DNA of 64,000 nucleotides, from NCBI GenBank assembly GCA_035578175.1, contig JAQMRL010000005.1, forward strand, positions 60,121,722 to 60,185,721, read 5' to 3'. Positions 19,197-53,065 of the stretch are shown piece by piece (the first letter of the stretch is position 1; each line of letters starts with the position of its first letter). Origin of the DNA: Catonia carolina. Taxonomy: Eukaryota > Arthropoda > Insecta > Hemiptera > Achilidae. The position numbers were made by a program, and so were the translations under genes. The notes beneath the pieces are model-generated. The model was not told the DNA's origin, ran no database searches, and worked only from the letters and a program-made list of their open reading frames with translations.

Positions 19197-19297
19197 TTTT
19201 AGTTAGGTATGCAGTCGAAAAAATGTTATACAAATAAAAATTGAATTTTTTTCTTTTGTTTTAGGTAGTTTTAAGCAACAAAAAATATTTGGGAAAA

Positions 19298-19624
19298 ATG
19301 AATACTAGTAAAAGAATGAAACGCACAATACACCAACTGGTATTGATAACAACTATTCTAGCACTTTCAAACTTTGGACCTTGGATGTGGAATGGTCTGG
19401 AGGCGGGCTACCGATGGGGTAATTTGAACGGTTGGGGTGCTGGAAATACTGGTGGAGTTTGGGGTTGGCACAAATTTTGGGATAGATTGTTCGACAAACC
19501 TACGTTTATGAGTGTCGTATTGACAACACCAACACCCTCCAGTAAAACAACACCGCCACCAACACAAAGTACTTTACCACCAAAAACTGCACCCATGACA
19601 GAATCGACAGACGACCCTAAATAG
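19298..19624 (+). CDS. W1: Trp/Gly-rich small secreted peptide with Thr/Pro tail
   Basis: A 108-residue ORF with no recognised family. The N-terminus is basic (MNTSKRMKR), then a hydrophobic segment at about residues 13-25 looks like a signal peptide. The mature part opens with GPWMWNG and has seven Trp in about 38 residues, mostly as GW/WG. From about residue 75 a Thr/Pro/Ser-rich tail (TTPTPSS, TTPPPTQ) could be O-glycosylated. A splice acceptor-like 'tttttttcttttgttttag' ends at 19264, 33 nt before the ATG, so the whole protein probably lies in one last exon behind a 5'UTR intron. The motif GPW-x-W-[ND]-G is shared with W4. A polyadenylation-type AATAAA lies at 19939. The ATG is preferred over an in-frame TTG at 19289. 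Secretion and paralogy are inferred; function is unknown. Confidence 0.7.
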   Translation: MNTSKRMKRTIHQLVLITTILALSNFGPWMWNGLEAGYRWGNLNGWGAGNTGGVWGWHKFWDRLFDKPTFMSVVLTTPTPSSKTTPPPTQSTLPPKTAPMTESTDDPK

Positions 19625-19938
19625 AAAATCCAAATTTATTTATTAACAGGTTGACTGATGTGATACTTTTTTTGTGCCGTAGTTCATGTTGCAAGATACG
19701 CTATGAGACACATATCAGTGTTTTATCACTTTTATGTCGTTTTTGACTTTAACTGGTATTAACAGATATGGTGATTTCAGCAATAACCTATAATTTTTTG
19801 TAGGTTTTTATTATGATGTCATTTTATATTTGGCATTGATTTTTGCACTTTTTTCAATTAGCCTATAATTTGTGTTAGTTTTAAATCAATTACAATTACA
19901 ATAATGTTTTTTTTGAATTGACAGCATAGTTATTTTGT

Positions 19939-19944
19939 AATAAA
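19939..19944 (+). terminator. Candidate poly(A) signal of W1
   Basis: First AATAAA downstream of the W1 stop, 315 nt away, just before a SINE-C. AATAAA is common in AT-rich DNA, so this is weak on its own. Confidence 0.3.
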
Positions 19945-19956
19945 ACTTAATGTTTA

Positions 19957-20085
19957 CTGTGGTTAGTACGCTAGCTTACCAAACGAAAGGTCTTGGGCTC
20001 AACTCCCGGCTAGTTTTTGGAAATTATTACAAGTTAAAAGCCATTGTTTCATATCCCAAAGTAGTCGCTACAAAGATATTGATAA
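19957..20085 (+). mobile_element. SINE-C (5'-truncated)
   Basis: 'gtggttagtacgctagc' (A box part), 'gggctcaactcccggctag' (B box), then the body 'tttttggaaattattacaagtt...gtagtcgct'. Confidence 0.7.
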
Positions 20086-20454
20086 TGCTTACAAATAAAC
20101 TAAAAAAATCATGAATAAAAGCACAGAATATAGCCTATATTTTCTGTTATAATTTAAGTTACTCACAGGTTATGTTTTGAACTTTATTACACGACATTAT
20201 TTGTAAATTTCATATGTTTAAAATTATGCACGACTTAATTTTTTTTAAAAATAACATTATTTGAAATCAGTTTCTTAAAAATAAACTATAAACAAATCTT
20301 TTCAATTTTATAGTTGAGGCCTCATTACCCTGAGTATCTCTCATTACATCAATTATTCATTATGTTAAAAGAGAAAATTACTATGTACAAAGATATTTAC
20401 ATTTTACAATATGGAATACTTTTCACTATAATTTTATGTACATTTAAGCTCTTT
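20086..20454. other. Unassigned AT-rich stretch
   Basis: No feature seen. Confidence 0.4.
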
Positions 20455-20885
20455 CAGACAAATCCAAAACATGGTAACGTTTCAGGCGACTAACTTCTTC
20501 TGCATTGTTTAGAAGATTTATTATGGCTAATTCGTTTTCGTGACTTTCAAGTCTCGCCTGATATTTTCTATTAAAACACCTGACCTTGTCTATTAAATCA
20601 GGAAGGTTGCAATATTGTTGTATTTAGGCATTCCTTGCAAACCATAGTACCCTTGTTATAGCCCAAAGAACCTTATTCTGGAACCTCTATGTTATTTCTG
20701 CTGGTAGTTCCCCAAAGTTCAACGCCGTACAACCAAACAGGTTTAAGTAACATTTTGTAAAGCAGCAACTTATTCTCAAGCGAGAGTGAAGAGTTCCTGC
20801 CAATCAACCAGTACATCCTTTTGTATTTCAGATTTAATTCATTTCTCTTCATTCTCATATTTTTGAGACATATTTTTTGTCTCAA
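20455..20885 (-). mobile_element. Jockey-like non-LTR retrotransposon, C-terminal RT remnant
   Basis: The minus-strand frame from 20885 reads LKYKRMYWLIGRNSSLS, then LLYKMLLKPVWLYGVELWG. After two stops and small shifts it continues LPDLIDKVRCFNRKYQARL and RLKRYHVLDLSERA near 20460. This order (K-x-LYWL-G-SLS, NKLLLYK-x-xLKP-W-YG-x-LWG, RLKR-x-x-x-DL) is the end of the Jockey-clade reverse transcriptase ORF. It is truncated at the 5' side and carries stops, so it is dead. Confidence 0.75.
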
Positions 20886-21437
20886 TTGTTGTTTTTTATA
20901 ATGAAAAAATAAAAGAATTAAATTTTTTGTTACTAGTAACTGATTTTTATATACTATACTGCATGAAAATGGGAAAAAACCATTTTAGCGTCTGTGGCAA
21001 GACTACTCATCATTCCAAAAGCAATCAACCGGTTAAGAAACGAATGTTTATTGATAAATAATGTAATCTGGTGGATTTGTTTCTGGAATTTTGAATTGGA
21101 AATTGAACGAGAAGATAAATGTTTAAATTGTTGGCAAAAAATTAATCAAAATTTTTATAAAATTATTCATTACGAACCAAGTAATTGAGATGAAAGTTGA
21201 AACTTTCAGGAATTGGTATCTCATTAAGTTGGTACAGTGCGCAATTCACTACACCTAACGGCTTATTGTTAAGGAAATCGATATTCTCACCTCAAATCGC
21301 TCCTTGAAAATTCTTTTTAAAGCGAGGGTCTCCAAAATGTAATTTTGTTTTGTTAAAAATTAGTGAAAAACTTGTTTGTTTGAAATACAGCTGTTATTTT
21401 TTTTATTGAATTCTGATTACAAATTAATTAATTAATC
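20886..21437. other. Mostly unassigned; holds an orphan exon-like ORF
   Basis: Apart from the exon-like ORF at 20989-21188, listed separately, nothing was recognised. Confidence 0.4.
20989..21188 (+). CDS. Orphan exon-like ORF, Trp/Cys-containing (weak)
   Basis: Follows an acceptor-like 'ccattttag' (AG at 20987-20988) and stays open to TGA at 21186. The peptide includes NNVIWWICFWNFELEI and a CLNCW motif: four Trp and four Cys in about 65 residues, a composition recalling the W and S genes. There is no in-frame ATG (only GTG at 20994) and an upstream in-frame TGA at 20964. If real, it needs an upstream coding exon. The acceptor's pyrimidine tract is poor. Confidence 0.2.
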
Positions 21438-21733
21438 AATCAGCTGTTTAACAGCTGATTTTTGGAGACGAAGGTTCCTGGTTCAAATCCTAGTAAAGGT
21501 AGTTACTTTTATACGAATTTGAATGCTAGACAGTGGTTACCGGTGTACTTTTATGGTTGGGGTTCAATTAACCATACTCTCTCAGGAATTGTCGGCCTGA
21601 GTCTGTACAAGACAACACCTCATTTACACGTCATACATATCATCCTCATCTCATTGGGTCATAGGGTTGCTTATTGTTCTAAATTGAACAGATTGCAACG
21701 TACACATACTAGGATTAAAAAAAAAAATAATTA
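21438..21733 (+). mobile_element. SINE-A (nearly complete)
   Basis: Starts in the head hairpin 'atcagctgtttaacagctgat', then B box 'ctggttcaaatcctagt' and the full body to 'gattgcaacgtacacatactagg' with an A-rich tail. The front of the head (A box) is missing. Confidence 0.75.
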
Positions 21734-22579
21734 AAAATTTTACATCTCCAGTGATCAGATTACATGATCTGGGATTTTTGTTTTATTTTATATTTATAAT
21801 GCTACGTTTTAATCTGTTTAGTTTCTTTGAACAATAAATAACTAATCTGGCGGAAAAGTGAAAAACCTAACGTATATCCATCGATGTTTATAAAATATGC
21901 TATGTGACCTCTCTGATGTTTAAACATAAAAAAATAGTTTTAAAATTAAATTCGGCCTTCGGGCTAGCCCATTCAGTCAGTGTAATAAAGTCGCTATTAT
22001 TTGTTAAGTAACACTAGTTGAGCAAACGACCTTGTTTGATGACCAGCTGACAGCCATTCCTGAACAAACTCCACTAGGGATCCTTGTTTAAAAATTCATG
22101 ACGAATAACGTCAATAAATAAAGCGAAAAGCAGCAATAAAATTAAGTGGTTGTCAATAAAGTACAGTTCGCAATAGCTAAAAAAAAATCAAAGATTATTT
22201 CAAGTAAACAACAGACAAAACAATTTAAATTGATATAACAATTTTATTAACAATTTATATAACAATTTTAAATTTATATAAATTAAAGTAAAAAAAAATC
22301 TAAGATAATGAATCGTTCAATGTAAATCGTTATTGTAAACCTACATTATCGTTATTGTACGCTACATTATCGTAATCTTTTTTTTATGTTACTCGTTTTT
22401 ATTTCGTAATGAGGTTGCTAAAAACTAAAACTGTTCATGCAACCATTATAAACTAATTGTAAAAAAGTAAATAAATTAAATAATATTCCAAAAAAATAAT
22501 TCACATTTTCCATTCATTTTTGTACACACATCCATTCCATTCTAATAATCGAGGTAGTGGAAATAACTCATCCAACTTT
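21734..22579. other. Unassigned AT-rich stretch
   Basis: No gene seen. Short direct repeats of 'aacaatttatata' (22237-22279) and 'ctacattatcgt' (22342-22374) are present. Confidence 0.4.
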
Positions 22580-23440
22580 GGATAAAAAGCTGACGCAGTT
22601 GCTAACTGAGCAGTATTGCTTTGGGCATATTTGACGAGGTTCAAACTTTATGAAGTACCGAAATGTCGACTGTGCGACAGTGAAGAAGAGTCCATTGCGC
22701 ATATTTTTGAAAGATGTCCCTGTTTTGGCCTTGATAGAATGGAGACAGCTGAGAAGATACTCGTTGCACAGTGGATTCCAGAAAGAGTAGGGGCAGCGAT
22801 GCTGCGGGATGAGGAGAGTTGGAAGTTGGTCGCTCAGTTTGCGGTGAGGGTGGTCGGGAGACACCCCTCCCGATCACCTCCGGGGTTGCGGAGGGAGGAG
22901 ACATATGGAGATTAGCGGGATCACCCTCTCCCATAGTAAATCAATCCTGTACCGATCTCAGTAAATAAGGTAGGCAAACTAATTTCCTGAGCTGGTGATG
23001 AAAGAGACGAATGAAAGTGAAAGAATGAGCGTTGGTCGGTGACAGCGAGAGGGGAATTAGGCTACGGTTCCTTTCCACGCCCCACTCACAGTATGTAAAT
23101 TTTTTAACCTAACATTTCCCTTGTACTATTACATAAACAGTTTCGAGGGAGGTGGAGGGTTGTTTGCTGATGTCGGATCAAGTGGCCAGGCGGCGGGTTT
23201 TTGGTTGGCAAGGCGGTTGTGGCCTACCTGGAGCTGGAAGAGGACGCCTCAATTGAGTCCAACACTACTTCCATATCGTAAGGGAGTGAACATGAGTTTT
23301 TCTCGCCGCCTCGGATATATATCAAAACTTTGGTTAAAAATACATGTGCAGGATATGTACAAAAAAATTTTACTAATCTTTAAACTATTTAGCCCAAAAA
23401 TATGGTAAAATAATTTTGAATGAATAAAATAAATAAATAT
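22580..23440 (+). mobile_element. R1-like non-LTR retrotransposon 3' remnant
   Basis: The frame at 22616-22915 carries the C-terminal zinc-knuckle-like motif C-x2-C-x8-H-x4-C (CRLCDSEEESIAHIFERC), preceded by YLTRFKLYE. This arrangement ends the ORF2 of R1/Jockey-group non-LTR elements. Downstream (22916-23300) is GC-rich, probably 3'UTR. Then comes an A-rich AT tail near 23400-23440. The reverse transcriptase part is gone. The 23121-23408 frame (Gly/Trp-containing) lies in this 3' region and I do not count it as a W-family gene. Confidence 0.65.
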
Positions 23441-23635
23441 ATAAGAATATTAAATCTACGCTAAACTTTGATTACGATATCGAGAAGGCAAGTAAAAAAC
23501 TTAAATTTCACTAACCTTGAATTTAGATTTATACTATTGGTTAATAAATTGATTGCTAAAAAGTTTAATGTTCATAAAGTTTGAAAAAAAATTAATATTG
23601 AATTTTGAAATATTGTGTGTCACTGTGTTTAAGTT

Positions 23636-24007
23636 GTTGTGTAGGTTATCAGCCGAAAGGCTGGTTTGAATTTCTAGAGGCTTTACTAAGTAAAACGAAG
23701 AGTGAGATGGTTTACCATTGTTTTCCTCACTGAATGGAAAAGTATGCTTATCAATAGCCCAGGTCTTCTAAAAAGCATCTATTTTCTACTCAGAAAATGA
23801 CACCTATACTTCAATCACCTCAGGGTTCGGCTGTATAATGAAATTCATTACTTTCAGAGGAGATAACTGTGATTAGTGTGTTTCATAACTCTATGTCTTC
23901 TGTTCTTAAATGCTTCAGTCATATATAATTTCTGACCAATTTTGTAAGCCTGGAACTAGGAGATCTATTGTAAATAATTTAACTTTCCACCTGCCTTTTA
24001 TGGAGAA
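23636..24007 (-). mobile_element. SINE-B copy 6 with an 11-bp target duplication
   Basis: GTGTTTAAGTT flanks the element on both sides (23625-23635 and 24008-24018). Full length, reverse orientation, from 'gttgtgtaggttatcagcc' to 'ccacctgccttttatgg'. Confidence 0.85.
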
Positions 24008-24261
24008 GTGTTTAAGTTAAGATCTCTATAAATTAATTTCTTGTTTATATACCAGGATATATTTAACACGTGTCTGATGGTCTGTGACTGGAATCACTCT
24101 AAGATCTCGATTTTGCAGATGTACCTTAAAGTTTTATTCCATATCAGAATGGGTTTCAATATTGATTAATTGATTTTAATTTTGTTAGATTTCTTAGGAG
24201 TGATTTATAGGCCAAAAGCCATTACATTTTCTACAATTTAAGTTTAGTAGTTTTCTTTTGA

Positions 24262-24960
24262 TAGTTAGTGTTGTTTCCATGAAAGGCAACGATCTATGAG
24301 AAGTTCCAGAAATCTGACAGTGCCACAATATGAAATTAAGTTGTACAGCTTTTATGCAAGACAGTTGCCTATCCTTAAACTGAATGTAATGTGTACAGAT
24401 TTGATATCATTGATTTGTATTCTCCAAGTGTCTAACCATTTTTTAAGTTTATCTAAATATATTTCGTAATAAATCTGATGAATCGGCAGAATTATATAAA
24501 TTATAAAAAAAGGTCTAAGAGCACTTCCTTGAAGGAAACGTGAATTTATAAAAAAATAATAGCTTAGATAGAATGTCAGAGAACTTAATTTGGAGAATCT
24601 ATAATATAATTACGAAGAAAGTATATAACTTAAAATAATGTGGAAATAGTTTTTTCAATTTATATTTCAAACCAAAGTGCCAAACCTTGTCAAACGGATC
24701 GTCCAGGAAAGACGCAAAATCACTTTTTTTCTTCAAAGGCAGATATAATTATCTTGGTTAACTTATTGACTCGTGCTACTGTTGCATGTCCTTTCGAAGC
24801 TAAATTGGGTAGGAAAGTTATGAATAAAATCTGAAAGAATTGGTTTCAATCTTTTTAAAGAAAGTTTTTCAAAGATTTTGCATGGATTTTACACATTGAA
24901 ATGCATGATAACAAATCACACGGGATGATAACAAATCTGTTCCAAGTTTGGGAGTGACTA
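24262..24960 (-). mobile_element. Jockey-like reverse transcriptase remnant
   Basis: Minus-strand frames contain GHATVARVNKLTKIII, then SFLDDPFDKVWHFGLKYKLKK (equivalent to the FLDxxxAFDxVWHxGLLYKL block), and finally KWLDTWRIQINDIKSVHITF, ending with a GTVRFLELLIDRCLSWKQH-type block. These are consecutive Jockey-clade RT motifs. Many stops and frameshifts, and the YADD region is degraded. With the 20.5-kb fragment it shows Jockey elements were active in the lineage, but both are dead. Confidence 0.7.
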
Positions 24961-25018
24961 TAATCTGAGATTTTTCTACAGTTAGGGAAATAACCAATAC
25001 GAAAAATAACATTAAATA

Positions 25019-25946
25019 TGAGGTGTGGCTATTAAATAACGAGACTGACGTAAAAAATTTAATTTTAATTTTATGCATAATCACTTATTGTCACCTTCAA
25101 TATACACTCCTTCTCTATCCTTGCAACACTCCATGCAAATTTTCCGTCGTTGGAAAAAGTGCTGGAAGTCATCTTCTGTCAGCTCCTTCGGACATGTGCC
25201 GCTTTCTCTTTTACAGCTTCTACAGACCCAAATCTTGTCCCTTTTAATGCAGATTTCACCTTAGGGAATAGGTAGAAGTCACATTGTGCAAGATCTGGTG
25301 AATAAGGTGGATGTTCTAACACTGAGATGCTGTTCTTGGCTAGGAACCTCTTGACAGATAACGCGAAATGAGCTGGAGCATTGTCTTGATGGACGACCCT
25401 TGATTTGTCCTTCCACTTTTCGCGGCGTTTTTTCCTTACGCTTTGACGTAGTTTAGAAAGTACCTCAAGGTAGTAATAGTGATTAATTGTTTGACTTTCA
25501 GAAACCCAGTGAAGGTACACAATCCCATAGATATAAAAAAAAACAATCATCATTGCTTTAAATGTTTACTTGCTCATTCGAGCTTTTTTGGCTCTCAGTG
25601 AAGTTCGGCTCTTCGAGTGCATGGATTGGCGTTTCATTTCCGAATCATAAAAGAAAATCCACGTTTCATCTCTTGTAATTTTCTTCTACCTGTTCCTTAA
25701 GGTGAAATCTGCATTAAAAGGGACAAGATTTGAGTCTGTGGAAGCTGTTAAAGAGAAAGAGGCACGTGTCCTGAAGGAGCTGACAGAAGATGACTTCCAG
25801 CACTGTTTCCAACGATGGAAAATTCGCATGGATCGTTGTAGGGATAGAGAAGGAGTGTACATTGAAGGTGACAATAAGTGATTATGTATAAAATAAAATT
25901 AAAATTTTTTACAGCATCAGTATCGTTATTTAATAGCCATACCTCG
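25019..25946. mobile_element. Fold-back mariner derivative 1 (928 bp, TA-flanked)
   Basis: The ends are mariner-type imperfect inverted repeats (shared core ATTAAATAACGA) with TA at 25017-25018 and 25947-25948. The minus strand carries the transposase catalytic part (DETWIFFYD near 25660, HQDNAPAH near 25385, HPPYSPDLAQCDFYLFP), frameshifted before its C-terminus. The + strand at about 25694-25881 carries a second, inverted copy of the C-terminus (KVKSALKGTRFESVEA ... DDFQHCFQRW). The two C-terminal ends form arms of about 245 bp. The N-terminal DNA-binding half is missing, so it cannot be autonomous. Confidence 0.8.
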
Positions 25947-26076
25947 TATAGCGGTGATACAAGTAACACACTCTTTTGGTAGCTCTTTTAATACTTTTCC
26001 CGTAATTATGTCTGAGGATTGATTCCCTTTTTTATGACATGTTTTACCCCATTTAGACTAAAACTTTTAATTTGTA

Positions 26077-26412
26077 ATGCCATTTAAAAAGAAGATGATA
26101 AAAATACTTTTATATCTTTCTCTATTTTATTTTGACCTACTTTTGAAGGAAATGGACATAAACCGGTTGAAAAATGTTCTGCGAAGATGTGAGCTTTCTC
26201 TTCGTTACTTCTCGCCCAGTTGCCATCGGCTTGACGAAGAGATGGTATGTTTACTTAAGAACTTTTAAAATCCCTTGTAAGCTTCCATAATGAATAATCT
26301 GTCACTGATAAATTTGAATACATTCTTAGCATTATATTATTTATTTTATTTAATCTGACGCCATTTCTTCTGCCAGTATTGTGTAAGGTTCAGGTGGTCT
26401 TACAGTTGCTAG
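26077..26412 (+). CDS. Two-exon small cysteine-containing secreted peptide
   Basis: Exon 1 coding part is 26077-26244, then a canonical donor (ATG|GTATGT). After a 132-nt intron, the acceptor 'catttcttctgccag' leads into a 36-nt last exon, 26377-26412, ending TAG. The splice is in phase 0. The predicted product is 67 residues: basic start MPFKKKMIK, hydrophobic stretch at about 8-22, a charged probably helical middle, and four Cys (two in exon 1, two in the short exon, YC...SC at the end). An upstream acceptor (AG at 26055-26056, 'tgttttaccccatttag') sits 20 nt before the ATG, the same 5'UTR-intron layout as the W genes. Without splicing the frame would run to 26268. The family is not recognised. 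Basis: three consistent splice sites, an even Cys count and a signal-like start. Confidence 0.5.
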
Positions 26413-26570
26413 TTATTATTCTAATATTATAACTTTAAAATTTTACCATAATTTAGCTGGGAATTTCAGCATAACAATTACGTTTATCTAAGATTCAATC
26501 GATAATTACTTGTATTAGCTATTATTAGTATAGTAAAATTAATTAATTGAGATTTATTTATATCTACTTA

Positions 26571-30615: not shown

Positions 30616-31744
30616 CTTTTGTAATATTGTGAAACGTATATTCATCACCAAAAACTAGGCTATAATAAAACCACTGTCATTTCCAACACGTTCCTGCATC
30701 CCCACACAAAATCTTCACGTACAAATTTATTGTCGACATTTATAATTTGTAATAACTGTAACTTAACGAGGAATTATTTTCAATAGCTGTTTCTCCAAAA
30801 TTGTTCACACAGTTACTTAAGGGTTTCGTAATACTTACAATTAGGTTACAATAATATAAACCTGCATCTATTCGATTGGCCTGTGCTGCATTGGTATACA
30901 GGCTGACTGTAAAGTCGTGCAAACCCAACCTACAAAAATTGTTTTTAGAGTATCTTTTCATTTTTTTAAACTTCCTATATTTCAAAATAACATGATTATT
31001 TGCATTCTAAAATTATTTATTGATACCGCACAATTTTACAGTCACCCTGTACATTGCTGACACATTAAAACAGGAGGGTTTCCAAGCAGATTTCTGTTTA
31101 CACAGATACCCTATGTTTTTGAACAGTGTTTTCCTGTTGTAGATTGATTATCTGTTTGGTGGTGGTTTACGCATAAACTTGAACATTATCAACATAATCA
31201 CACATATGTATACATTTTTAATCACTTCACTGCATTAATTAGCCAACACGTATACAATAAACGCTAATTAGCCAACACGTATACAATAAACGCAAGCCAT
31301 ACTGATTTAGCCGGCCACCTGATGTCATTCTCCTTCCATTACCTCATTACCTGGAAGTAGAGTACGCCCTGCAACAGTACGTTTCTGAATGTAAATACTT
31401 TTGGCACCTTTGACATTGAATGGTTTTTTCAGTGTACAGAAGTTAAAACCCGAATTTTTTCATTTAATATAAAAAATATTGTACGTTGAAAACATTTTTC
31501 TTGGTCAGATTTACTACCAGGTCTATAAAAAACGTAACCAGAGGCTCTTTGGTGAAGTGAGTTTCTAATATTAGGAATTCCGGTCATTATTTTATAATCA
31601 GTTTGAAATAATCCACGTTTCTTAGGACCACACGAAAAAATGTATTCTTAGTAAGCTGAAAAATATGAATTTTACAGTAAAGTTTAAAAAAAATCGGAAA
31701 ATAACTTTACATTTAAGATAAATTTTTGTTTGTTTATTTTTTAG
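30616..31744. other. Upstream region of W2, otherwise unassigned
   Basis: Holds a perfect 29-bp tandem duplication at 31236-31293, about 450 bp before W2. The frame at 30740-30985 has no supporting feature. The region ends in a pyrimidine-rich tract and the W2 splice acceptor. Confidence 0.45.
31236..31293 (+). repeat. Perfect 29-bp tandem duplication
   Basis: The unit starting TAATTAGCCAACACG and ending CAATAAACGC occurs twice without a mismatch (31236-31264, 31265-31293). Recent slippage or duplication. Confidence 0.95.
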
Positions 31745-31745: not shown

Positions 31746-32000
31746 ATGAAACTGTTGAAGAAATTTAATAATAAAAAACTGAAGAACATATTGAGACAAG
31801 TTTTACCAATAATTATAATCACAGCATCATTCCGATGGAATTATGGAGCAGGATGTGGTGGCCATTGGGTTTGTGCGACATCGAAAGATTTCAAAGAACC
31901 AGATTGTGGGCATGATTGGGGTTGGACTAAACCACGATGCGGGAAACCTAAAAAATGGAGAGATTGGAGTGGTTTTGGAAGCTGGATGTGGTGGGGTTAA
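31746..32000 (+). CDS. W2: Trp-rich, four-cysteine small secreted peptide
   Basis: An 84-residue ORF of an unrecognised family. Start MKLLKKFNNKKLKN is strongly basic. A hydrophobic segment (about 16-27, LPIIIITA) acts as signal or anchor. The mature part begins RWNYGAG, has nine Trp, four Cys (CGGHWVC ... DCGHDWGW ... RCGK) that could form two disulfides, and ends SWMWWG. It is also Lys/Arg/Asp-rich, unlike W4. The ATG lies 1 nt after a good acceptor ('gtttgtttattttttag', AG at 31743-31744). The first downstream AATAAA (32223) lies in a SINE-B inserted 158 bp past the stop. It shares the I-x-T-A-[SF] signal end and early W-x-x-G-A-G with W4. Role unknown; extracellular location inferred. Confidence 0.7.
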   Translation: MKLLKKFNNKKLKNILRQVLPIIIITASFRWNYGAGCGGHWVCATSKDFKEPDCGHDWGWTKPRCGKPKKWRDWSGFGSWMWWG

Positions 32001-32158
32001 TGATATAACAGTGTATTGAAAAAGTATGTATTGTTGACTCTTGGTATCCGTAGATTTTATAGTCCGATATTTTCTGTAAATTTGATCCAGTTTTTAGATT
32101 GCCAATCATAACACATCTCCAACGCCTCATATAATATTGTAGCTATACTCCCCTTAAT

Positions 32159-32552
32159 CTGCCCATAGCAGACAGGTGGAGTGTCAAATTATTTACACTC
32201 AATCTGTTAGTTGCAGGGCTGAAATAAATAGTTCTGTTTCTTGTCACATGGTCAGCCAATTAAATGACTGAATCATTTAAGAACAGAAGAGGTAGAGGTG
32301 TAAAAGACACTAATCAGAGTTATCTTCTTTGAAAGTAATGAATTTCATTATACAGCCAGACCCTGTGGTGAATGAAGTGAAGGTGTCATTTGCAGAGTGG
32401 AAAATATGTGCTTTTCAGAAGGCCCGGCATGCTGATAAGTGAACTTTTCCATTCAGTGAGGAAGGCATGGTAAACCACCTCACTCCTCGTTTTACTTAGT
32501 AAAACCTCTACAGGTTCAAACCAGCCTTTCGGCTGATGACCTAAACAACAAC
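32159..32552 (+). mobile_element. SINE-B copy 7 with a 12-bp target duplication
   Basis: ACTCCCCTTAAT flanks both ends (32147-32158 and 32553-32564). Full length: starts 'ctgcccatagcagacaggtgg', ends 'ctaaacaaca'. Lies in the putative 3'UTR of W2 and contains the nearest AATAAA. Confidence 0.9.
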
Positions 32553-32699
32553 ACTCCCCTTAATGGGGTTTGGCTTTGCTCTCACACTAATCCAAATCAA
32601 ATTAATAACATTATCATAATCATAATAACAATATTATTGTCTTCTCTTATTCAGTCTCTTCCTTCATATTACCTTAAGGTGAGATCACACCGAAAATTC

Positions 32700-33876: not shown

Positions 33877-35224
33877 CGAGGGTAGGCTGATAAGTAATGC
33901 ACACATGCTTGTAGAAGACAACTAAATAAACTTCAGTAGCGCGCCTGGTGGCATGTGGAAGTACTATTTCTCCTCTACAAGCCTGCGCAGTTTGAAGGCG
34001 TTGCTTTCATTCAGTTTGTTTTGAGTAGTGGAAGTATGGCGTCGTGTTCTGGTGCTATGTCAACGAGAATTAAACAACGCGCTGTTATCGAATTTTTAAC
34101 TGCTGAGAAAGTGAATCCTAGTGAGATTTATCGTCGTTTAAAGGCTGTTTATTGTGACGATACTGTTGATAGGTCTACTGTGAATCGTTGGGTAATAAAA
34201 TTTCGTGATTGCCAACCTGGAAAAGCCTTAATTGTTGACAAAACACGCAGTGGACGACCAATCACTGCCTCAGACGATAATCGTCGCAAACTCATCGATG
34301 ATTTGATTCAAAATGACCGGCGAATCACTCAACAGCGTATCGCAAACCAAATTGGAATATCTAAGGAACGTGTTGGCTTCATTATTGAACAATTGGGATA
34401 CCGTAAAATCTGTGCACGATGGGTACCACGCCGTCTGACAGACGAGAATAAACAGCGTCGATTGGAATGCTGTGAACAACTTTTGAAGCGCTACCGTGAC
34501 GAAGGAGACGACTTTCTTTTGAATATTGTGACGGGGGACGAGTCATGGGTTCATCATTACGATCCCGAAGAAAAAAGGCAGAGCGCTGAATATCGTCATC
34601 CACATTCTCCTGTTGTGAAAAAGTTCAAAACACAACCGTCCGCAAAAAAAATTCTTTTGACTGTGTTTTGGGATGCTCGCCGAGTTTATGTGACTGATTA
34701 TCTGGAACGAGGGGCAACGGTAAATTCTGCTCAGTATATACAGACTCTGAAACACCTCCGACGTCGAGTTTGTCGTGTTAGAGGCAACCTGGCGCCAATA
34801 ATTTTGCAACACGACAATGCTCGTCCACACACTTCGCGTGCAACTGGAGAGGCTCTGAGAAACCTGAAGTTTCAACCAATTTTACACCCTCCGTATTCTC
34901 CCGACCTTGCGCCTTGCGATTTTTATTTTTTTCCTCTACTGAAGAGAGACCTTAAGGGTAATCATTACAGCTCGGACAATGAGGTGAAGGCAGCTATTGC
35001 GTCCTGGGTTCGAGGAAAGTCGGAAGAATTTTTCAGTGACGGAATGAAAAAACTTGTTAAACGTTGGGAGAAATGTGTAATGCTTAACGGTGACTATATT
35101 GAAAAATAAATAGATAATTTGGTAGGTTAAGATTTGTACTTTAATTTGTTATTTACCCCATCTTGCTATTTCTTTTTGTTCGTCTTCTACAAGCATGTGT
35201 GCATTACTTATCAGCCTACCCTCG
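33877..35224 (+). mobile_element. Complete mariner element, 1348 bp
   Basis: Perfect 43-bp terminal inverted repeats (33877-33919 and 35182-35224, beginning CGAGGGTAGGCTGATAAGTA) are flanked by TA at 33875-33876 and 35225-35226, the mariner target duplication. It encloses one intact transposase gene. No mismatch between the ends and no ORF damage indicate recent insertion and possible activity. Confidence 0.95.
34036..35109 (+). CDS. Mariner transposase, DD34D, apparently intact
   Basis: Cut-and-paste DNA transposase that binds the element's inverted repeats and inserts at TA. From the Met at 34036 it has 357 residues, close to the ~345-350 usual for mariners. Alternatives are Met 34057, or 33955 in the longest frame. 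An N-terminal helix-turn-helix half (about 8-120; FLTAEKVNPSEIYRRLK, IANQIGISKERV) leads to the linker WVPRRL (about 129-134). The catalytic triad follows: D168 in TGDESW, D260 in QHDNARPH and D295 in PDLAPCDFYFFP, with exactly 34 residues between the last two. No stop or frameshift. Minus-strand ORFs at 34270-34875 are shadows. The gene is unrelated to the degraded mariners at 25 and 60 kb except by family, since its ends differ. Confidence 0.92.
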   Translation: MASCSGAMSTRIKQRAVIEFLTAEKVNPSEIYRRLKAVYCDDTVDRSTVNRWVIKFRDCQPGKALIVDKTRSGRPITASDDNRRKLIDDLIQNDRRITQQRIANQIGISKERVGFIIEQLGYRKICARWVPRRLTDENKQRRLECCEQLLKRYRDEGDDFLLNIVTGDESWVHHYDPEEKRQSAEYRHPHSPVVKKFKTQPSAKKILLTVFWDARRVYVTDYLERGATVNSAQYIQTLKHLRRRVCRVRGNLAPIILQHDNARPHTSRATGEALRNLKFQPILHPPYSPDLAPCDFYFFPLLKRDLKGNHYSSDNEVKAAIASWVRGKSEEFFSDGMKKLVKRWEKCVMLNGDYIEK

Positions 35225-44630: not shown

Positions 44631-44888
44631 ATGGACAAGAAAAATAATTGCGAATGGATTACTATGACAAATATGAAGAGACCATTTAAAGGCGTATGGT
44701 TAATTACTTTGTTTATTATATTTATGAAACTTGAAAGAGGAGAAGGCTGCTGCAACAATGGTGGATGGTCTAATTGGATTAATTATTGGGTAAATTATTG
44801 GGAGAGTTGGGGGCGTTGGGGTGGTGTGGCGGGGTGGTTCGATTGGAATAGCTGGGACAATTGCAATAAATGTGATGAGTGGTGGTAA
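44631..44888 (+). CDS. W3: periodic Trp-rich small secreted peptide
   Basis: An 85-residue ORF of an unrecognised family. Residues 1-21 are polar/basic, and a hydrophobic stretch (about 22-33, VWLITLFIIF) is signal-like. The mature part starts near GEGCC and is strikingly regular: Trp every 3-4 residues (SNW-INYW-VNYW-ESW-GRW), then AGW, FDW, NSW, and a CNKC pair before a terminal EWW. About 11 Trp in the last ~45 residues. Four mature Cys. A modest acceptor ('ctgtaaatatatctag', AG at 44614-44615) lies 15 nt before the ATG, with an in-frame stop between, so this ATG is the start. Poly(A) signal AATAAA at 44929, 41 nt past the stop. The 3-4 residue spacing could put all Trp on one helix face (inference). 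Confidence 0.68.
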   Translation: MDKKNNCEWITMTNMKRPFKGVWLITLFIIFMKLERGEGCCNNGGWSNWINYWVNYWESWGRWGGVAGWFDWNSWDNCNKCDEWW

Positions 44889-44928: not shown

Positions 44929-44934
44929 AATAAA
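44929..44934 (+). terminator. Poly(A) signal of W3
   Basis: AATAAA 41 nt after the W3 stop codon, within the normal range for a compact insect 3'UTR. Confidence 0.5.
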
Positions 44935-45105: not shown

Positions 45106-46146
45106 AACCCACCAGGTTGATTTAACGGTAAAGTCGTCGCCGCGAATCAGCTGTTTAAGGGGAGATGGCACGATGTTTTAACTCAAAATTTTGATTTTTG
45201 GTTTTTTATGTTTTTTTGTTTTTTTTATGTTTATGTTTGGTGTTTTATGTAGATCTACCAAAAAAACATTAAATTACGTCAAAAAAATTAACTTTTTTAT
45301 TAAGTTTACACAGAAAATCATCATGTTACCAAGAACGAATATTTTTCACAATTTTGTACAGCTCATTTTAGTGCAAAGAGAAATTTTAATTTTTAAAATA
45401 TCTGCACCACTGTTTTTTGTACTCTCAGCTGTTGGTTCAGGTTTCTAAACAAGTGTTAATGGGAAATTTACTTGTTTATGTAAATTCTGTTTTTGATTTG
45501 TGCCTTCCTGTTTCTTGTATTTTCCCGTAAATTTAGATTTTTAACACTAGGTACATTTTTCTCAGAAACCAATAAACCTACCAGGCTGAAATTTTTACCA
45601 GTTAATTTTCTTGTATATCCACATATACCAACATTTTTATGACTTCCTCAGGTGCTCCATAATATAGTAATCCGCAAAAAACATAGAAATCAATTTTTAA
45701 AAATTTTATGTAATTCGCAATTTAAAAAAAAAACAATGGTATGGTCCAAAGTTTAAATTGACAAAATGTCAGTAGCTCGAGGAGAAACCCGACACCTATA
45801 GTGTGTAAAGTTTATATTCCCTATATTTTACCAATCCTATGAAAAATGTACCTAAAAATAGCAAATTTAACATTGGCGGGTTACAAAGTACAGTCTACCC
45901 TTACGAGTTTTTGGAAACGAAGGTTCCTGGTTGAAATCCTAGTAAAGGTAGTAATACTAGACAGTAGTTACCGGTGTAATTTGATGTTTGGAATTTCTTT
46001 CTCGCGAATGGTAGGTCTGAGTCTGTACAAGACTAAATATCATTTATACGTTATACGTATCATCCTCATCTAACTGGGTCATGGGGTTGCTTATGGTTCT
46101 TAAATTGAACAGATTGCAATTTACACATATTAGAAATCAAAAAAGG
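45106..46146 (+). mobile_element. SINE-A split by a ~745-bp insertion
   Basis: The SINE-A head (45106-45158; A box region 'gttgatttaacggtaaagtcgtcg') breaks in the head hairpin and resumes at 'tttttggaaacgaaggttcctgg' (45908), then continues to the tail at about 46146. The inserted block (about 45159-45907) has weakly matching inverted ends ('aaggggagatggcac' and, reversed, 'aagggtagactgtac'). No ORF of note; the 45191-45448 frame lacks an ATG at its start. Confidence 0.6.
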
Positions 46147-47227
46147 TATATTAGTGAAAAAATATGTTATAAATATTTAAAAGGTATTGAAATTCCCAGA
46201 TAGGCACCTATTAGCTCCGATCCACCCAGAAAAGCTATTGGAAATTACTCGTATATGCTAGGTGGAAAACGATTTATCTTCTACACGTTCCGTCTACTTC
46301 AATAAAATTTGTATTTATCTTCGCAGTAATGACTTTAGACATGGTGGAAATAGTTAGATAGGTGTGCCGCAGTGGCTACAATAAATCAGCTATTCTGTGA
46401 GATCACACTATTGGAAAACCGCCTCAATTCACACAACGTAAGGTTTGGATATTAAGTGTATTGTACAGATAGGTCCACATAACAACCGGGATGTGCAACG
46501 TTATAGCTTTAGTATACTACCATGAACAAAAACATTTATCGCAACTCGATGTACCCTTTCGTACACCGCTCTTCGTCCTTCTCCACGCTCTCTCGCTCTA
46601 TCTATTTTCAAGAATTGAAAAGAAGCAATACGCACACCACAGACCACACACACGCACATGCGCAAATATGTTAAACTTATGCTTTTCTTTTGTTATTGTT
46701 ATACACTTTTGGTTTGCTTGATACAATTATATTTTTGCTGTTTTTATTTTCTAATTCATATACATTTTTTGCCTAATAATACATATACAGATACAATTAT
46801 ATATTTACTGTTACTATTAACTTGTTTTTCTAAAGAAATGAGAAGGACGGGAGTCGTAGGACCATTAATCTAATTAATAACTAATATATTACTAATAGTA
46901 ATTACCGTAATACTAAAACTAGTAATACTAATTAAAATTAATAAATAAGAAAGTTTTCTAAATAACTAAACTAAGTAAATCTAAATAAATAAATAAAATA
47001 AATTTGTAAGAAAACGTAAGCTACAATTTAACTGAAATTATAAAAAAATAACTACTATTGGTATAAGAATCTAAACGGCCGAAGAGAAAGAAAGAGACGA
47101 AAGAGATCAACAGCTAGGATAGCACTGACAAGACAGTGACAACAACAATGGAAGTCGGAATGTGTTAATAGCGGAGCAGAGACAATGTTTTCAGGAACGC
47201 GCGAAACTGCAGTCATAAAATACTTCT
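46147..47227. other. Unassigned AT-rich stretch
   Basis: No gene seen. A TAATA/CTAATA-rich simple stretch lies at about 46865-46960. A GC-richer patch at 47080-47215 was not identified. Confidence 0.4.
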
Positions 47228-47560
47228 GACCCACCGGGTTGGTCTAGAGGTAAAGTCGTCGCCAAAATCAGCTGTTTAACAGCTGATTTTCGGAGACGAA
47301 GGTTCCTGGTTCAAATCCTAGTAAAGGTAGTTACTTTTATACGAATTTGAATACTAGACAATGGTTACCGGTGTACTTTGATGGTTGGGGTTTAATTAAC
47401 CATACTCTCTCAGGAATGGTCGGCCTGGTTCTATACAAGACTACACCTCATTTACACGTCATCCACATCATCCTCCTCTCATTGGGTCATGGGGTTGCTT
47501 ATTGTTCTAAATTGAACAGATTGCAACGTACACAAATTAGGAATAATAATAAAAAAAAAC
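47228..47560 (+). mobile_element. SINE-A, full-length
   Basis: Complete copy: A box 'ttggtctagaggtaaagtcg', head hairpin 'atcagctgtttaacagctgat', B box 'ctggttcaaatcctag', body, and A-rich tail. Best reference copy of this tRNA-derived family in the window, with that at 63287. Confidence 0.85.
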
Positions 47561-47630
47561 TTTTACTCCTTTCTTTCCCCTAGTTTGTAGCGGTCATTCA
47601 GCCCGGTCGTTACACGGGCGTAGCTATAAC

Positions 47631-47920
47631 TCACCAGAGTTAAAGGAATGGTCTAGTGATAAATTCGTCTTCTTGAGTCAGCTGTTCAACAGCTGATTTC
47701 GGATATGAAGGAACTGAGGTTCAAATCATAGTAAAGATTACTTTTATTGGTATTTGAGTACTAGATATAGCAGTAAGAAATGGTCGGTGTGAGTCCGTAC
47801 AAGAATACGCCGCATTTACACGTCATACATCATCATCTCATTGGGTGACGAGGTTGCTTATTGTTCTTAATTAAACAGATTGCAACGTAAATACATTAGG
47901 TAAAAAATAAATAAAAAAAT
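47631..47920 (+). mobile_element. SINE-A, diverged copy
   Basis: 'ggtctagtgataaattcgtc', 'gtcagctgttcaacagctgat', 'gaggttcaaatcatagt', then a body with a deletion around 'accggtg'. Only about 70 bp after the previous copy, same orientation. Confidence 0.75.
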
Positions 47921-48368
47921 GAACTAATGAACTCAATCTTACTTTAATGTATTTTTTCTCATAGCAAATTATTTTTTTTACATTATTATTTTTGTGTTGG
48001 TTTCTGTATTTTGTAGTTTTAAAACTTTTCCTTTGCGTATTTCCTTCCTTGTTATTTAATTTAATCACAACACTGCATGATGGAATGGAAATCAATTATT
48101 ATTAATTTTATTATTTTTTTATGAACAGGACTATTATCTGAAAGTTCACTGTAACTGGAAAGTTTTCTTCCGTTCACAAGTTGATTTTATAAAGTTACAT
48201 CTTCCATTGACTATAAAGGACTGCGACATTTCAGTTAACAGAATAAACTGATTAGCAGTAATTAATCACAAAAAAATATTGCAAGCAGTTTGCTGTAACT
48301 TGGCGTATGCTGCATTTCATGAAAGGGTCAGTACATTTTATACTCTTTATGCTATTTCATACAGAAAA

Positions 48369-48485
48369 TGCCGGCCGCATTAGCGTAGTTGGTAACGTGC
48401 TCGCCTCTTATCATGCGATCTTGGGTTTGAATCCCATTCAGGCACGGCATAATTATATACGTTACAAAAAATCATTTCATTCTTC
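48369..48485 (+). mobile_element. SINE-C2, tRNA-derived
   Basis: A box 'gcattagcgtagttggtaacg' and B box 'gggtttgaatccc', body 'aggcacggcat...tacaaaaaatcatttcat'. Same subfamily as the copy at 60062. The ORF at 48307-48675 spans it and is not a gene. Confidence 0.75.
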
Positions 48486-48623
48486 ACCATCTGCATTATC
48501 AGTAATTGCAGAACAGTCGGACGTTAAACAAAAAAAATCATATACAAACATAATTCGCGTTAAACTTATTAAAATTGTAACTCAAAATGGAAATTCACAA
48601 AATTTACCACTTAAAAGGCAAGT

Positions 48624-48942
48624 AACCGACCGGGTTGATCTAGCAGTAGAGCCGTCGTCAAAATCAGGTGTTTAACATCTGATTTTCGGAGACGAAGGTT
48701 CTGGGTTCAGATCCTAGTAAAAATAGTTACTTTTATACAGATTTGAGTACTAGACAGTGGTTAAAAATTTCCTTGACGGTTGAGGTTCAATATAATCTCT
48801 CAGGAATGGTCGGCCTGAGTCTGTACAAAATTACACCTCATTTACACTTCATACATATCATCTTCATCTCTTTAGGTCACTGGGTTGCTTATTGTTTATA
48901 ATTAAACAGATTGCAACGTATACAAATTAGGGATTGAAAAAA
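48624..48942 (+). mobile_element. SINE-A, full-length but diverged
   Basis: 'gaccgggttgatctagcagtag', head hairpin 'tcaggtgtttaacatctga' with compensating changes in both arms, B box 'gggttcagatcctag', body and tail. Confidence 0.8.
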
Positions 48943-50689
48943 TGCAAGTAATTAACCTTTAAATGCACGGAGTATGCTTGTTATTGAAAGCTATTTATTA
49001 ACACGTTCAGCACGGCGGCTAGAATCACAGGTGCCTCGCTACGCCGACCCACCATTGCAGTAAAAATATACAATGCCGCCTTAAGGCGGCCTTCGGCCAC
49101 GAAAACGACCTTACTTATTTGCTAATCTACTAACCGGCTAAATATAGTACGGTATTACACGCTTTTGTTGTTTCTACGAAATTTATATTTTATTTTTTAG
49201 ATTACATTTTTCTTATCCAAGGGCGGAAAACGGCGAAAATTTGCTAAAGAATATTGAAACAGTATGTTTAAAAGTGCTTAATCCGCAGTAACATGTCTCA
49301 GTAAGTTGAATAGGTTAATTTGGGCAGAAAAAATTTCACTCCACAAAAAATAAACAAAACTTACAACTCATGCGGTAAAGTGACGTTGACGGCGTACTGG
49401 GACTCGCAAAGCCCAAGTTTTTGTGATTTTAAAAAAATCAAAGCACGGTAAATACTGAGAGCTATTTTTACTTGTTTCAACAGAAAGTTCAGCTTCTGTT
49501 AAAACAAGTAATAAATCCTCTTTGTGACGGTTTCAAGTTTTTATCTGCAACCCCATAAAATATAATCTACTCGTTTCAAAAATCGCGATAAATCTGAAAT
49601 TCTAAATTTAAAAGTTTTATTGTAAAATGGTAAACCAGTTTATAGGTCAATATTTTTTTATTAAGTAGCCTATACGTACTTCTAGATATTTGTAAACAAA
49701 TACAAATTCCTTGTAGCCTAAAAATTTCCTTTACTGTAAAAAAATCTAAACTGTATAAAAATCTTAAAGATGGCCAAATTTAAAATGTTCAAGTCAAATT
49801 TAAAGTTAAAATTTGATATGTTTGCTTTAAATTTAATATTGCAATACCACACCTTTGATGTACCCCAGAATTTGTCAAATAACATTCAAGTTTCCATGGC
49901 AAACTGGAAAACAGTTATTGCATTTAACAAAACAGCTTGCAAACGTAAATATCAAAATGGCCGTGAATTTTAAAGCAAAAAAAAAACAACTATATATTTA
50001 AATTATTCTACCATTAGGGTCATTCCATTAAAAAACTAAAACAAATAAAAATAAAAAGGATGCAGCAACTAATTTATTTATTTTTGGATTACTTAATATA
50101 GATTACCCATTACAGTTGTTTTCTTTGTTTTCGATGAAATCAAATCGTTCCGGTAAATCTGAAAATCATCAGCTGTTCGCAGACTCGCGTGGAAATTAGG
50201 AATTTTTACAGATTTTTAAAATTAGAAAAAGAAAAACTCTTCTGAGCCCATGACTTGGAACCCCTATCTTAAATAAATGGACACAGTAATTTCAAATTCA
50301 AGGGTCCTTGTATCGGTTCATCGATCTCATTTTCAGATCTACGTAAAATATAAGTTCAATAAAAAATATTTTTTTAGTTCTCTGGAGGTTAGTTTGCCTA
50401 ATTTTTCTTAGTTGCGTTTGGGATTGTCTTTTGTCCATTGTTTATGGATTTTTTATTCTTATTTTCTAATATTAGCTACTGACGACGTTCTTTTGATTAC
50501 ATATAACAGATCAATAATTATTTTGTTAATTGACATACCATTGCAAAATGTACAATTGCACACACAATGGAAGTTATGGTGATTCCCAATTTCTATGACT
50601 TCCATTATTCTGTAACAACCCATAAGTTGTAAATATAGCCAACGGTCCACCATCTGATTTTGTTTAGACGGGTGTATTTATCCTTCTGT
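48943..50689. other. Unassigned stretch
   Basis: 'ttaacacgttcagcacggcgg' (49000-49020) looks like one end of a TTAA-type DNA transposon, but no matching inverse end was found. The AT-rich ORF 49770-49973 is built on internally repetitive 'aaatttaaa' sequence and is not supported. No gene seen. Confidence 0.35.
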
Positions 50690-50960
50690 GTTTTTGGGCC
50701 TTTCTTTCACCTACCAACTTTCAGCCAACCACTGGGGTAGTTCTCCTTCCCGTTAGCCCTCCAGGTTGGTTGAACAATTGGTGGGAGAGGGAGGCTTGTC
50801 AGCCAGAGGTTTTCTGGTTCGAACCCAGGGAATTTACTATCAGTTCCCTTGGAACTTAAGAGAGAAACGGTAGTTAAGAAGGATCAGAATTTGAAGAAGA
50901 GACTAGGAAAACGAGGAGTGACCAGGAGAACAAAGAGAAGAAGAAGAAGAAAGGAGACAC
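50690..50960 (+). mobile_element. Unclassified retroposon with tRNA-like B box and (GAA)n tail
   Basis: GC-richer block with 'ctggttcgaacccag' (B-box-like) near 50820 and a (GAA)n-rich end at 50933-50952, like the tails of the RTE-type fragments here. Confidence 0.4.
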
Positions 50961-51414
50961 ATTCAATTTGAGGTAAATACATTCGTGTATTTATTAAGGG
51001 TTTCTAATTTTTTGTTTTTATATTAACATCGCAATATTATTGTTTTAATTCACATTTAATATTTCCCCACCGGTTGAAGTCAATGGGGGTGCATGGATTA
51101 GCTTTCCTGCTGCCTTACTCATAAAATGTTTTTGACTACAATGGTCTAAGTAACCCTTTGATTATGTTAAACCCAAACGTATTACAGTCTCTCTGGTATT
51201 AACAATAAGCAAGCATATAATGTGAACTTAATTGCTAGTAAAGGTTATAAATATGTCAAATTGCCTTCTCATTAGTTACTGCGTTATTGCCAGATAATGC
51301 TGTCAGACAAATACTGACAACGCTTCCAAAAAAATGCCAATATAGCAGAGAGCTTACTAAACCACTCCTGCTTTTTGATTAGTGCATAAGAAGAATTCGG
51401 TTCTGGTTTCATTT
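50961..51414. other. Unassigned AT-rich stretch
   Basis: No feature seen. Confidence 0.35.
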
Positions 51415-51689
51415 TACTCGCTCTACAACTCCGACCAAGACTAACCATCGGGACATGGCTACCGGGCTCCGACGAAGATACATCGACGACGCCACTGAAG
51501 AAAAGATAATACTTCCGTTCGCTTACCCGATACTGTAACCGTGTCGCCCGCGCCACGAGCAATGTCCATTGTCACCCTTTGACCGAACAACTATTAAATT
51601 CCAAATAAATTAAATCTCAAAAGTATCAATTCTCATCATCTTACCAATACATTTCTGAATTAATATCGGGTTAAATCCCGAATTATGAT

Positions 51690-52100
51690 AATTTCGGGAA
51701 TTAGTATCGAGTTAAGTAAGACGGGTTTTATAAGACGGTGGCAGTTCCAGCCTCGACATGTGGCAGTGAAACATGTGTAATGAGAATAAGGATGGAAAAA
51801 ACATCCAAACTGCAGAAATAAAATTCTTAAGGTCGGTCAAGGGTTGCACAAGACTAGACAGGATCAGAAATAAAGATATATGGCAAAAATTGGGAATTAC
51901 TCCACTCAATAAAAAATAACATTATATCGTGCTCAATGGGTCAATCATTTAAAATGAAATGCCAAAAAGCCGCTTGCTTAGTGTAGCGAGAAGATACAAA
52001 CCTGTGGGGAGTAGAGGTATTGGCAGGCCGAAGAAAAGATGGGAGCCGGAACAGATAGAAATGCCTACCTTGTGAAGAGAAGAAGAAAAAGAAGAATATC
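51690..52100 (+). mobile_element. RTE-like non-LTR 3' end inside the LTR
   Basis: Frame pieces resemble VPASTCGSETCVM, a LRSVKGCTRLDRIRN-like block (degraded), WVNHLK and AGRRKDGSR, then a (GAA)n tail (52078-52098). Several stops and shifts. Confidence 0.5.
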
Positions 52101-52155
52101 GGGTCCCGACGAAGCAACCATTGACGAACTACAGCGAGGTGACTGAGTCTAAAGC

Positions 52156-52517
52156 GGACGCCAAATAAGCTTGCCTGTGTAGCTGCGCGTAAAATTCGGA
52201 TAAGTCTGTTGGCTTCGTGTCTTAGTACCAAACTACCTATTAAATCACTGGTGCTGAACGATGAAAATTATCATCTAATAGCGACGTTGAAAACATTCAA
52301 TTGTAAACATTGTATACAACAATAAACTCCTACCACGTACAACACATTACAGACTAATGTTTTCAGGTTAGCTGATATATACCGTTGTGGAAGTGACATG
52401 ATTCTGACCACAGCTGGTACAGCACTGCCCCTTCCACTCGCTGAGGCAACCGAGCGTGCAATTACCAAAATAAATCTTTTGCACACTTAAGAAAATCGGC
52501 AAGCTTATTTGGCGTCC
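52156..52517. mobile_element. MITE with perfect 20-bp inverted repeats
   Basis: GGACGCCAAATAAGCTTGCC at 52156-52175 is exactly inverted at 52498-52517. It is 362 bp with no coding capacity, inserted in LTR sequence. No target duplication was identified, so the superfamily is open. Confidence 0.8.
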
Positions 52518-52783
52518 TTACTACCCACCTAGGCATACACACTTAAACTACTTTTTTTCAGGACTACCAAAAATATTTAAGGTTTCCTCACACCACTCAA
52601 CGTTACCAACGGGTAAAAATAGTTTTGGTAAAATTATTCAATACCCACTGACGAAAGATGCTAAAAAATCTACTTCTGGTAACTTTTGCAATGCACATGC
52701 CTACTGAATTACTTAGATTTACTGTAAAAATCGATGGTCTAAAGTTGTTTATTTTTTAATTTCTTCATTTTTAGGCTGTGAGA

Positions 52784-53005
52784 ATGAAGAATATCTTCAT
52801 CAAAAACGTTTTGAGGATGAAGTTTTTCATTTTGGAAGCATGGATAGTGACGATGATAATAACAGCTTTCGGATGGGGTCCTTGGGCATGGGACGGCGCC
52901 GGTGGCGATTATGGGAACTGGGGTGGATGGATAGGTTGGGCACCATACTGGCAGAATTTTGGTGGCGATTGGAGTAATTCTTTTTCGTCCTTTTTTAAAA
53001 AATAA
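52784..53005 (+). CDS. W4: Trp/Gly-rich small secreted peptide
   Basis: A 73-residue ORF of an unrecognised family. Basic start MKNIFIKNVLRMK, hydrophobic segment at about 14-30 (FFILEAWIVTMIITA), then the mature part FGWGPWAWDGAGGDYGN. The Trp/Gly pattern continues (NWGGWIGW, PYW, GDW), with nine Trp in total and no Cys. It ends in a Ser/Phe stretch and KK. A strong acceptor ('tttcttcatttttag', AG at 52773-52774) precedes the ATG by 9 nt. An in-frame GTG at 52778 is not needed. Poly(A) signal AATAAA at 53060. GPW-x-W-[DN]-G followed by Gly and Tyr aligns with W1, the clearest evidence that these ORFs form a family. Minus-strand ORF 52739-53008 is a shadow. Confidence 0.75.
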   Translation: MKNIFIKNVLRMKFFILEAWIVTMIITAFGWGPWAWDGAGGDYGNWGGWIGWAPYWQNFGGDWSNSFSSFFKK

Positions 53006-53059
53006 CAATATATCAAGAAAATATCAAGAACATTGTTGGATATTATTGTAGTGTTTTTC

Positions 53060-53065
53060 AATAAA
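53060..53065 (+). terminator. Poly(A) signal of W4
   Basis: AATAAA 55 nt after the W4 stop, followed by a T/GT-rich downstream region. Confidence 0.55.

Follow-up and report, generated by a model that had tools for sequence, protein, structure and literature searches.

Clusters that join a constant signal to a variable mature part are already known for secreted effectors. In the Hessian fly, SSSGP-1 and similar genes encode small secreted salivary proteins in tandem, with promoter, untranslated regions (UTRs) and signal more conserved than the diversified mature part, and with positive selection reported (PMC2955719). For the KQY/KHI cassette effectors of the pea aphid, PMC7495047 gives mostly scattered loci and very many tiny exons (33 of the 37 exons of KQY1a). 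Here we describe a locus of the hemipteran Catonia carolina (Achilidae) where the variable parts resemble building material. The window, i.e. the whole stretch analyzed, covers 64,000 nt (60121722–60185721 of contig JAQMRL010000005.1) of a 1.47 Gb genome; it was examined together with 100 kb on each side (264 kb), and its numbering is continued past its end. Ten small open reading frames (ORFs), named W1, W2, W3, W4, X1, X2, X3, C1, C2 and W5, lie on the + strand within 65 kb. Each is a single open frame from ATG to stop, and we read the whole as one lineage-restricted tandem cluster.

The interpretation that we tentatively prefer, with somewhat less than even confidence, is that a common chassis of signal peptide and UTRs carries mature modules that have diverged or been exchanged, and that the products are a self-associating secreted material. 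The Trp and Gly “stickers” of W1–W5 would associate outside the cell, as would the disulphide-forming CGG repeats with GS linkers of C1 and C2; judging from composition, the extracellular product may be a coat, a gel or an adhesive. Secretion of the ten proteins is predicted, their signal peptides having been judged from hydropathy and charge alone. The cluster probably arose by tandem duplication, and a mostly noncoding first exon would precede the coding parts.

Relationships among the ten ORFs

The similarity of W1–W4 was scored pair by pair, signal and mature parts being shuffled separately (10000 shuffles). The pair formed by W1 and W4 scores 93 for a shuffle mean of 34.6, and no shuffle out of 10000 is as high; at the DNA level the result for this pair is 0 out of 2000. 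W1 and W4 are thus clear homologues. For the other pairs the number of shuffles reaching the score is 222 (W1–W2), 272 (W1–W3), 1038 (W3–W4), 7004 (W2–W3) and 8787 (W2–W4). On DNA, W1–W3 is reached by 13 of 2000 shuffles but its alignment leaves the reading frame, and the remaining four pairs are not above shuffles. Codon positions 1 and 2 were compared with position 3 for greater conservation, giving p 0.024 for the pair W1–W4, 0.076 for X1–X2 and 0.70 for W3–W4. Upstream 9- and 10-mers common to W1–W4 show no excess over controls, which were perhaps inflated by overlapping stretches. By sequence W3 seems weakly tied to the cluster and W2 barely; we infer that both are family members.

An initial sequence-only reading had placed the array at 19265..53065. 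This extent is too short: the array continues to about 84.3 kb. In the flanking 100 kb on each side just one more small, Trp-rich and secreted-like ORF occurs, W5. Its signal is closer to those of W1 and W4 than any of 5000 shuffles (8 of 5000 for W3), and over the whole length 6 and 27 shuffles out of 5000 reach its scores with W1 and W4 respectively; for W2 the number is 96 out of 5000. A search with W5 recovers C1 and C2, which have an alike signal-like start and Cys/Gly/Ser-rich mature parts, and a search with C1 among 6091 frames finds C2 at E 4e-24 and W5 at E 8e-6. W5, C1 and C2 are homologous across both the signal and the mature part. In C1 the CGG unit occurs 18 times, together with two G(S/A/P) runs, and W5 is a hybrid. 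The last two residues are KK in W4, W5, C1 and C2. The C-terminus of C2 is M-G-K-K, which by rule of thumb would signal amidation and basic trimming. A hand-aligned signal profile of 20 residues, from which each member was held out in turn, was run on 6085 frames: W1, W5, C1 and C2 rank first and W3 third. The proposal that secreted peptides form a diverging array on one strand is supported: W5, C1 and C2 extend the array and the 3' flanks tie in X1–X3. The links to W2 and W3 are weak. Trp does not define the family, the mature parts of C1, C2 and X1–X3 not being Trp-rich.

X1 and X2, which the initial reading did not mention, are tandem relatives inside the window. The X1–X3 core reads LWWSC or IIWWSW ... 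SGSY, with a conserved signal segment and a variable remainder. In X3 the distance from the upstream element to the coding part exceeds that in X2 by about 400 bases, perhaps through an intron or an insertion.

The flanks of the 45 gene pairs were tested against 1200 same-region controls, about 0.5 pair being expected below 1%. On the 3' side ten of the 45 pairs fall below 1% of controls, including C1 with X1, X2 and X3, W5 with X1 and X3, W5–C1 and C2–X3. A profile of the X1–X3 3' flanks, run on the 264 kb, ranks C1 first among hits outside the model (E 2e-4), W5 third (E 0.42) and C2 fourth (E 0.55), and these three matches each begin within 8 nt before the stop codon. W5, C1, C2 and X1–X3 have a 3' flank in common despite unlike mature parts. 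The locus also shows that gene links can be recovered from 3' flanks where the proteins no longer align. On the 5' side three of the 45 pairs pass (C1–C2, X1–X2 and W2–W4).

Composition and gene starts

Four + strand ORFs of 73–108 aa had been announced in the window with 7–11 Trp per mature part; their positions were confirmed, and we count 7, 9, 11 and 8 Trp in W1, W2, W3 and W4. They are the top four in Trp among the 67 ATG-initiated ORFs of at least 50 aa in the window: over the whole ORF Trp amounts to 15.3% in W3, 12.3% in W4, 10.7% in W2 and 6.5% in W1, the next ORF being at 5.6%. Their cores contain 16–24% Trp and 13–25% Gly (7 W and 10 G in 42 aa for W1). No ORF of at least 50 aa with at least 6 Trp and at least 8% Trp occurs in 200 third-order Markov windows. 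W2, W3 and W4 reach these values and W1 (6.5%) does not. W1–W4 are real and are not explained by base composition. The Pro/Thr/Ser-rich tail of W1 (19496–19621, 26 of 42 residues) is found in W1 only among W1–W5; its composition is as would be expected of mucin-type O-glycosylation.

Other traits attributed to W1–W4 fared unevenly. A basic start and one hydrophobic segment are present in all four but are not rare, 10 of 62 other ORFs passing a similar test; in W3 an inner Met at 44673 would give a more usual signal. The motif GPW-x-W-[ND]-G is indeed common to W1 and W4. The W-x-x-G-A-G said to be common to W2 and W4 is an error: W4 actually has W-D-G-A-G, i.e. W-x-G-A-G. Acceptor-like sites had been reported before each ATG. 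Taking as strong a YAG after at least 13 pyrimidines out of 17, they are strong for W1, W2 and W4 (three of four within 33 nt, vs 3.4% of 963 ATGs) and weak for W3 (15 nt, 10/17 pyrimidines). From such sites an intron in the 5' UTR is plausible for W1, W2, W4 and W5. Polyadenylation signals lie at most 60 nt after W3, W4 and X1, which says little because 22.5% of random positions carry one.

A composition-blind filter for secreted-like non-repeat ORFs, with thresholds chosen after the genes were known, keeps 18 ORFs in the 264 kb, seven of them being W1–W5, C1 and C2.

Table 1. Features of the cluster, in window numbering
Feature	Position	Strand	Length	Description
W1	19298..19624	+	108 aa	Basic start, hydrophobic segment, Trp/Gly core, Pro/Thr/Ser-rich tail
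W2	31746..32000	+	84 aa	Basic start, hydrophobic segment; mature part with 9 W, 10 G, 4 C
W3	44631..44888	+	85 aa	11 W, 6 G, 4 C in 46 aa; five WxxW
W4	52784..53005	+	73 aa	8 W, 11 G in 44 aa; C-terminal FFKK
X1	58701..58871	+	56 aa	Secreted-like; LWWSC-x8-C
X2	59396..59545	+	49 aa	Tandem relative of X1
X3	starts 64382 (L012:382-558)	+		Third X ORF, just past the window end
C1	69303-70001	+	232 aa	CGGNNPCGGSN-type repeats, then GS repeats
C2	74656-75072 (L013:656-1072)	+	138 aa	Cys/Gly/Ser-rich mature part
W5	84054-84320 (contig 60205775-60206041)	+		Fifth Trp-rich ORF
Acceptor-like AG before W1	19263..19264	+		33 nt before ATG; TAG, 14/17 pyrimidines
Acceptor-like AG before W2	31743..31744	+		1 nt before ATG; TAG, 14/17 pyrimidines
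Acceptor-like AG before W4	52773..52774	+		9 nt before ATG; TAG, 14/17 pyrimidines
Upstream element of X3	63809..63926	+		75% match to 59180-59296, which precedes X2

Around the ORFs, stretches repeated elsewhere in the window (up to 7 self-matches) are found upstream of W1 (18709–19200) and downstream of W2 (32158–32554). A mariner transposase frame is open at 34036–35109 on the + strand (357 aa, Mos1-like; PDB 3hos at E 8e-52; Pfam Transposase_1), and a second mariner fragment lies at 25179–25553 on the minus strand. Retroelement-like frames were recognized by eye, and the CpG observed/expected ratio is 0.93.

Constraint and competing interpretations

The signal codons are constrained, the nonsynonymous divergence (dN) being below the synonymous one (dS): 0.16 and 0.71 for C1/C2, 0.20 and 0.79 for W5/C1, both from small counts. 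The same holds for codons 1–46 of X1/X2 (0.31 and 0.84; Fisher p 0.01, small counts). The mature parts diverge faster than the signal (dN 0.32 and dS 0.71 for C1/C2, 0.87 and 1.16 for W5/C1). Their dN/dS ratios, short and averaged over sites, are 0.45 for C1/C2, 0.75 for W5/C1 and 0.73 for X2/X3 (10 codons), and the mature comparisons X1/X2 and W1/W4 are near or at saturation. Identity in the mature part vs the 3' flank is 65% vs 85% for X2/X3, 59% vs 80% for X1/X2 and 79% in both for X1/X3; for C1/C2 it is 81% (with many gaps) vs 70% and for W1/W4 72% vs 58%.

The initial reading had proposed a possible salivary or effector, antimicrobial or cuticular role. That mature coding sequence is less conserved than the 3' flank in two of the three X pairs (X2/X3 and X1/X2) would be expected if the ORFs encoded secreted effectors, e.g. 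salivary, selected to vary; a variable mature part behind a constant signal and UTRs would then reflect an arms race with a host. The same pattern is reported for the Hessian fly salivary genes (PMC2955719). We nevertheless consider such effectors unlikely: no dN/dS above 1 appears among the computable comparisons, though these are short and site-averaged, W1/W4 are without a common conserved flank, and repetitive CGG, GS and Trp/Gly sequences would suit a material rather than specific binding.

Antimicrobial peptides, the Trp of which would insert into bacterial membranes, seem distinctly unlikely. Trp density speaks for them, antimicrobial families commonly form small secreted clusters restricted to a lineage, and in Hydra Cys/Trp-rich candidate peptides are encoded at shared loci (PMC10945409). 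The mature net charge is positive in W2 (+4), W5 (+7), C1 (+15) and C2 (+3), but it is −3 in W3, −1 in W4, +1 in W1 (0 in its core) and −2 to +1 in the X ORFs. Cationic Trp-rich antimicrobial peptides of the indolicidin kind have a net positive mature peptide; W2 and W5 share this property with them, and it is not a feature of the family. A single cationic antimicrobial design is unlikely because the mature charge spans −3 to +15, and the Trp/Gly “stickers” with the CGG/GS repeats would fit a self-associating material better. A helical Trp face at 100 degrees is moreover not in excess over chance in three of the four W1–W4 cores; W4 gives a nominal p of 0.04 at 100 degrees and W3 one of 0.048 at 120 degrees, before any correction for the 16 tests.

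Could the ORFs be chance or dead frames, e.g. decayed pieces of transposons? The window is repeat-rich, self-matches covering 22,536 of its 64,000 bases, but all ten ORFs are clear of sequence with at least four self-matches in the 264 kb, shuffled windows yield no such Trp-rich ORF, and dN is below dS in the signal codons of C1/C2 and W5/C1 as in codons 1–46 of X1/X2. We hold this to be very improbable. Also very improbable are substrates for dense C-mannosylation, i.e. unusual glycopeptides with sugar-modified Trp. WxxW is the consensus for this modification, and a stick-insect neuropeptide bears the sugar (PMC12990085). The motif occurs ten times vs 5.7 expected (five in W3, three in W4, two in W2; nominal p 0.03), but 12 spacings were tested and the excess does not survive correction; W1 has no such motif.

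Several results weigh against the self-associating material on a common chassis. W2 reaches only about p 0.02 with W1 and W5, and of the other pair tests it passes a single one, the 5' flank with W4; this match (5 of 1200 controls) may be due to chance among 45 pairs, because just three of them pass on the 5' side. W5–W3 is not significant over the whole length (1784 of 5000 shuffles). When held out of the signal profile, W4 falls to rank 182 and W2 fails to be recovered; W4 is counted as a member because it is similar to W1 and W5, not via this profile. In the 3'-flank test no pair containing any of W1–W4 passes among the 45; an unrelated site (E 0.17) ranks above W5 and C2 in the flank profile, and once C1 or W5 is added to the profile C2 is not among the nine matches listed. 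Two AlphaFold predictions are of poor quality, with a mean pLDDT of 57 and 50, and so say nothing of the fold; low complexity is by itself no proof of a structural role.

A more specific form of the self-associating material is that the locus is a module exchanger: one signal/UTR chassis would serve repeatedly for the secretion of low-complexity modules that differ in chemistry (stickers of Trp/Gly, disulphide repeats of CGG, linkers of GS and short WWSC peptides), producing a new multi-component biomaterial from a single locus in one lineage. We regard this as doubtful. About 24% Trp in one peptide stands here beside CGG/GS repeats in neighbouring ORFs; if expressed, the locus would show one duplicated scaffold generating unlike structural modules, and would be a natural source of short Trp/Gly sequences with which to study self-assembly.

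Relatives and described systems

Pfam returns no family at E≤1 for W1–W4, X1 and X2 and none for W5, C1 and X3; the single match of C2 (E 0.22) is far below the curated cut-off. The protein set was searched with three queries: the W1–W4 profile yields 30 candidates, none at E≤0.1, and neither W4 alone nor the X1/X2 alignment gives a candidate. The PDB holds no match for the W1–W4 profile and one at E 0.42 for C2. No relative of W1, W2, W4, W3 (minus its first 15 residues) or the mariner transposase was confirmed in viral contigs, nor any of the 581 pattern matches of C2 in prokaryote contigs; Rfam at the gathering threshold and a tRNA search found nothing. Genome-wide searches were made with W4, W3 (minus the first 15 residues) and W5, and only the best candidates were scored: among these W5 recovers no frame besides itself, C1 at E 0.002 and C2 at E 10, W3 only itself at E≤10, and W4 only itself at E≤0.001 (4 candidates scored).

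A search of the literature for Trp/Gly-rich secreted families gave no match among the titles and abstract openings listed, which is not proof of none in print; the nearest are the HyCWR peptides of Hydra. As PMC10945409 presents them, they are, like the present ORFs, predicted secreted, Trp-rich and lineage-restricted, with several paralogues per locus. Their Cys number is six and their C-terminal part is strongly basic, whereas mature W1–W5 have 0, 4, 4, 0 and 3 Cys and differ in charge.

With the Hessian fly SSSGPs the locus shares the arrangement of small, here predicted, secreted proteins in a tandem cluster, and it may in part resemble them in a conserved signal and UTR beside a diversified mature part. 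It differs from them by flanks that are only partly conserved (not those of W1–W4) and by mature parts made of Trp/Gly or CGG repeats. Its dN/dS does not exceed 1 where computable, a weak test. The KQY/KHI effectors likewise join a common secretion signal to divergent coding parts; here, in contrast, there is one open frame per ORF, ten ORFs stand in one cluster, and tiny exons are not apparent from the genomic sequence.

The brochosomins and brochosome-associated proteins of leafhoppers (PMC10607721 and PMC12119089) are set apart by description only: brochosomins are of 21–40 kDa, and brochosome proteins are rich in Gly, Tyr and Pro. Like the proteins predicted here they are orphan secreted proteins, some of them Gly-rich, and they build a secreted coat.

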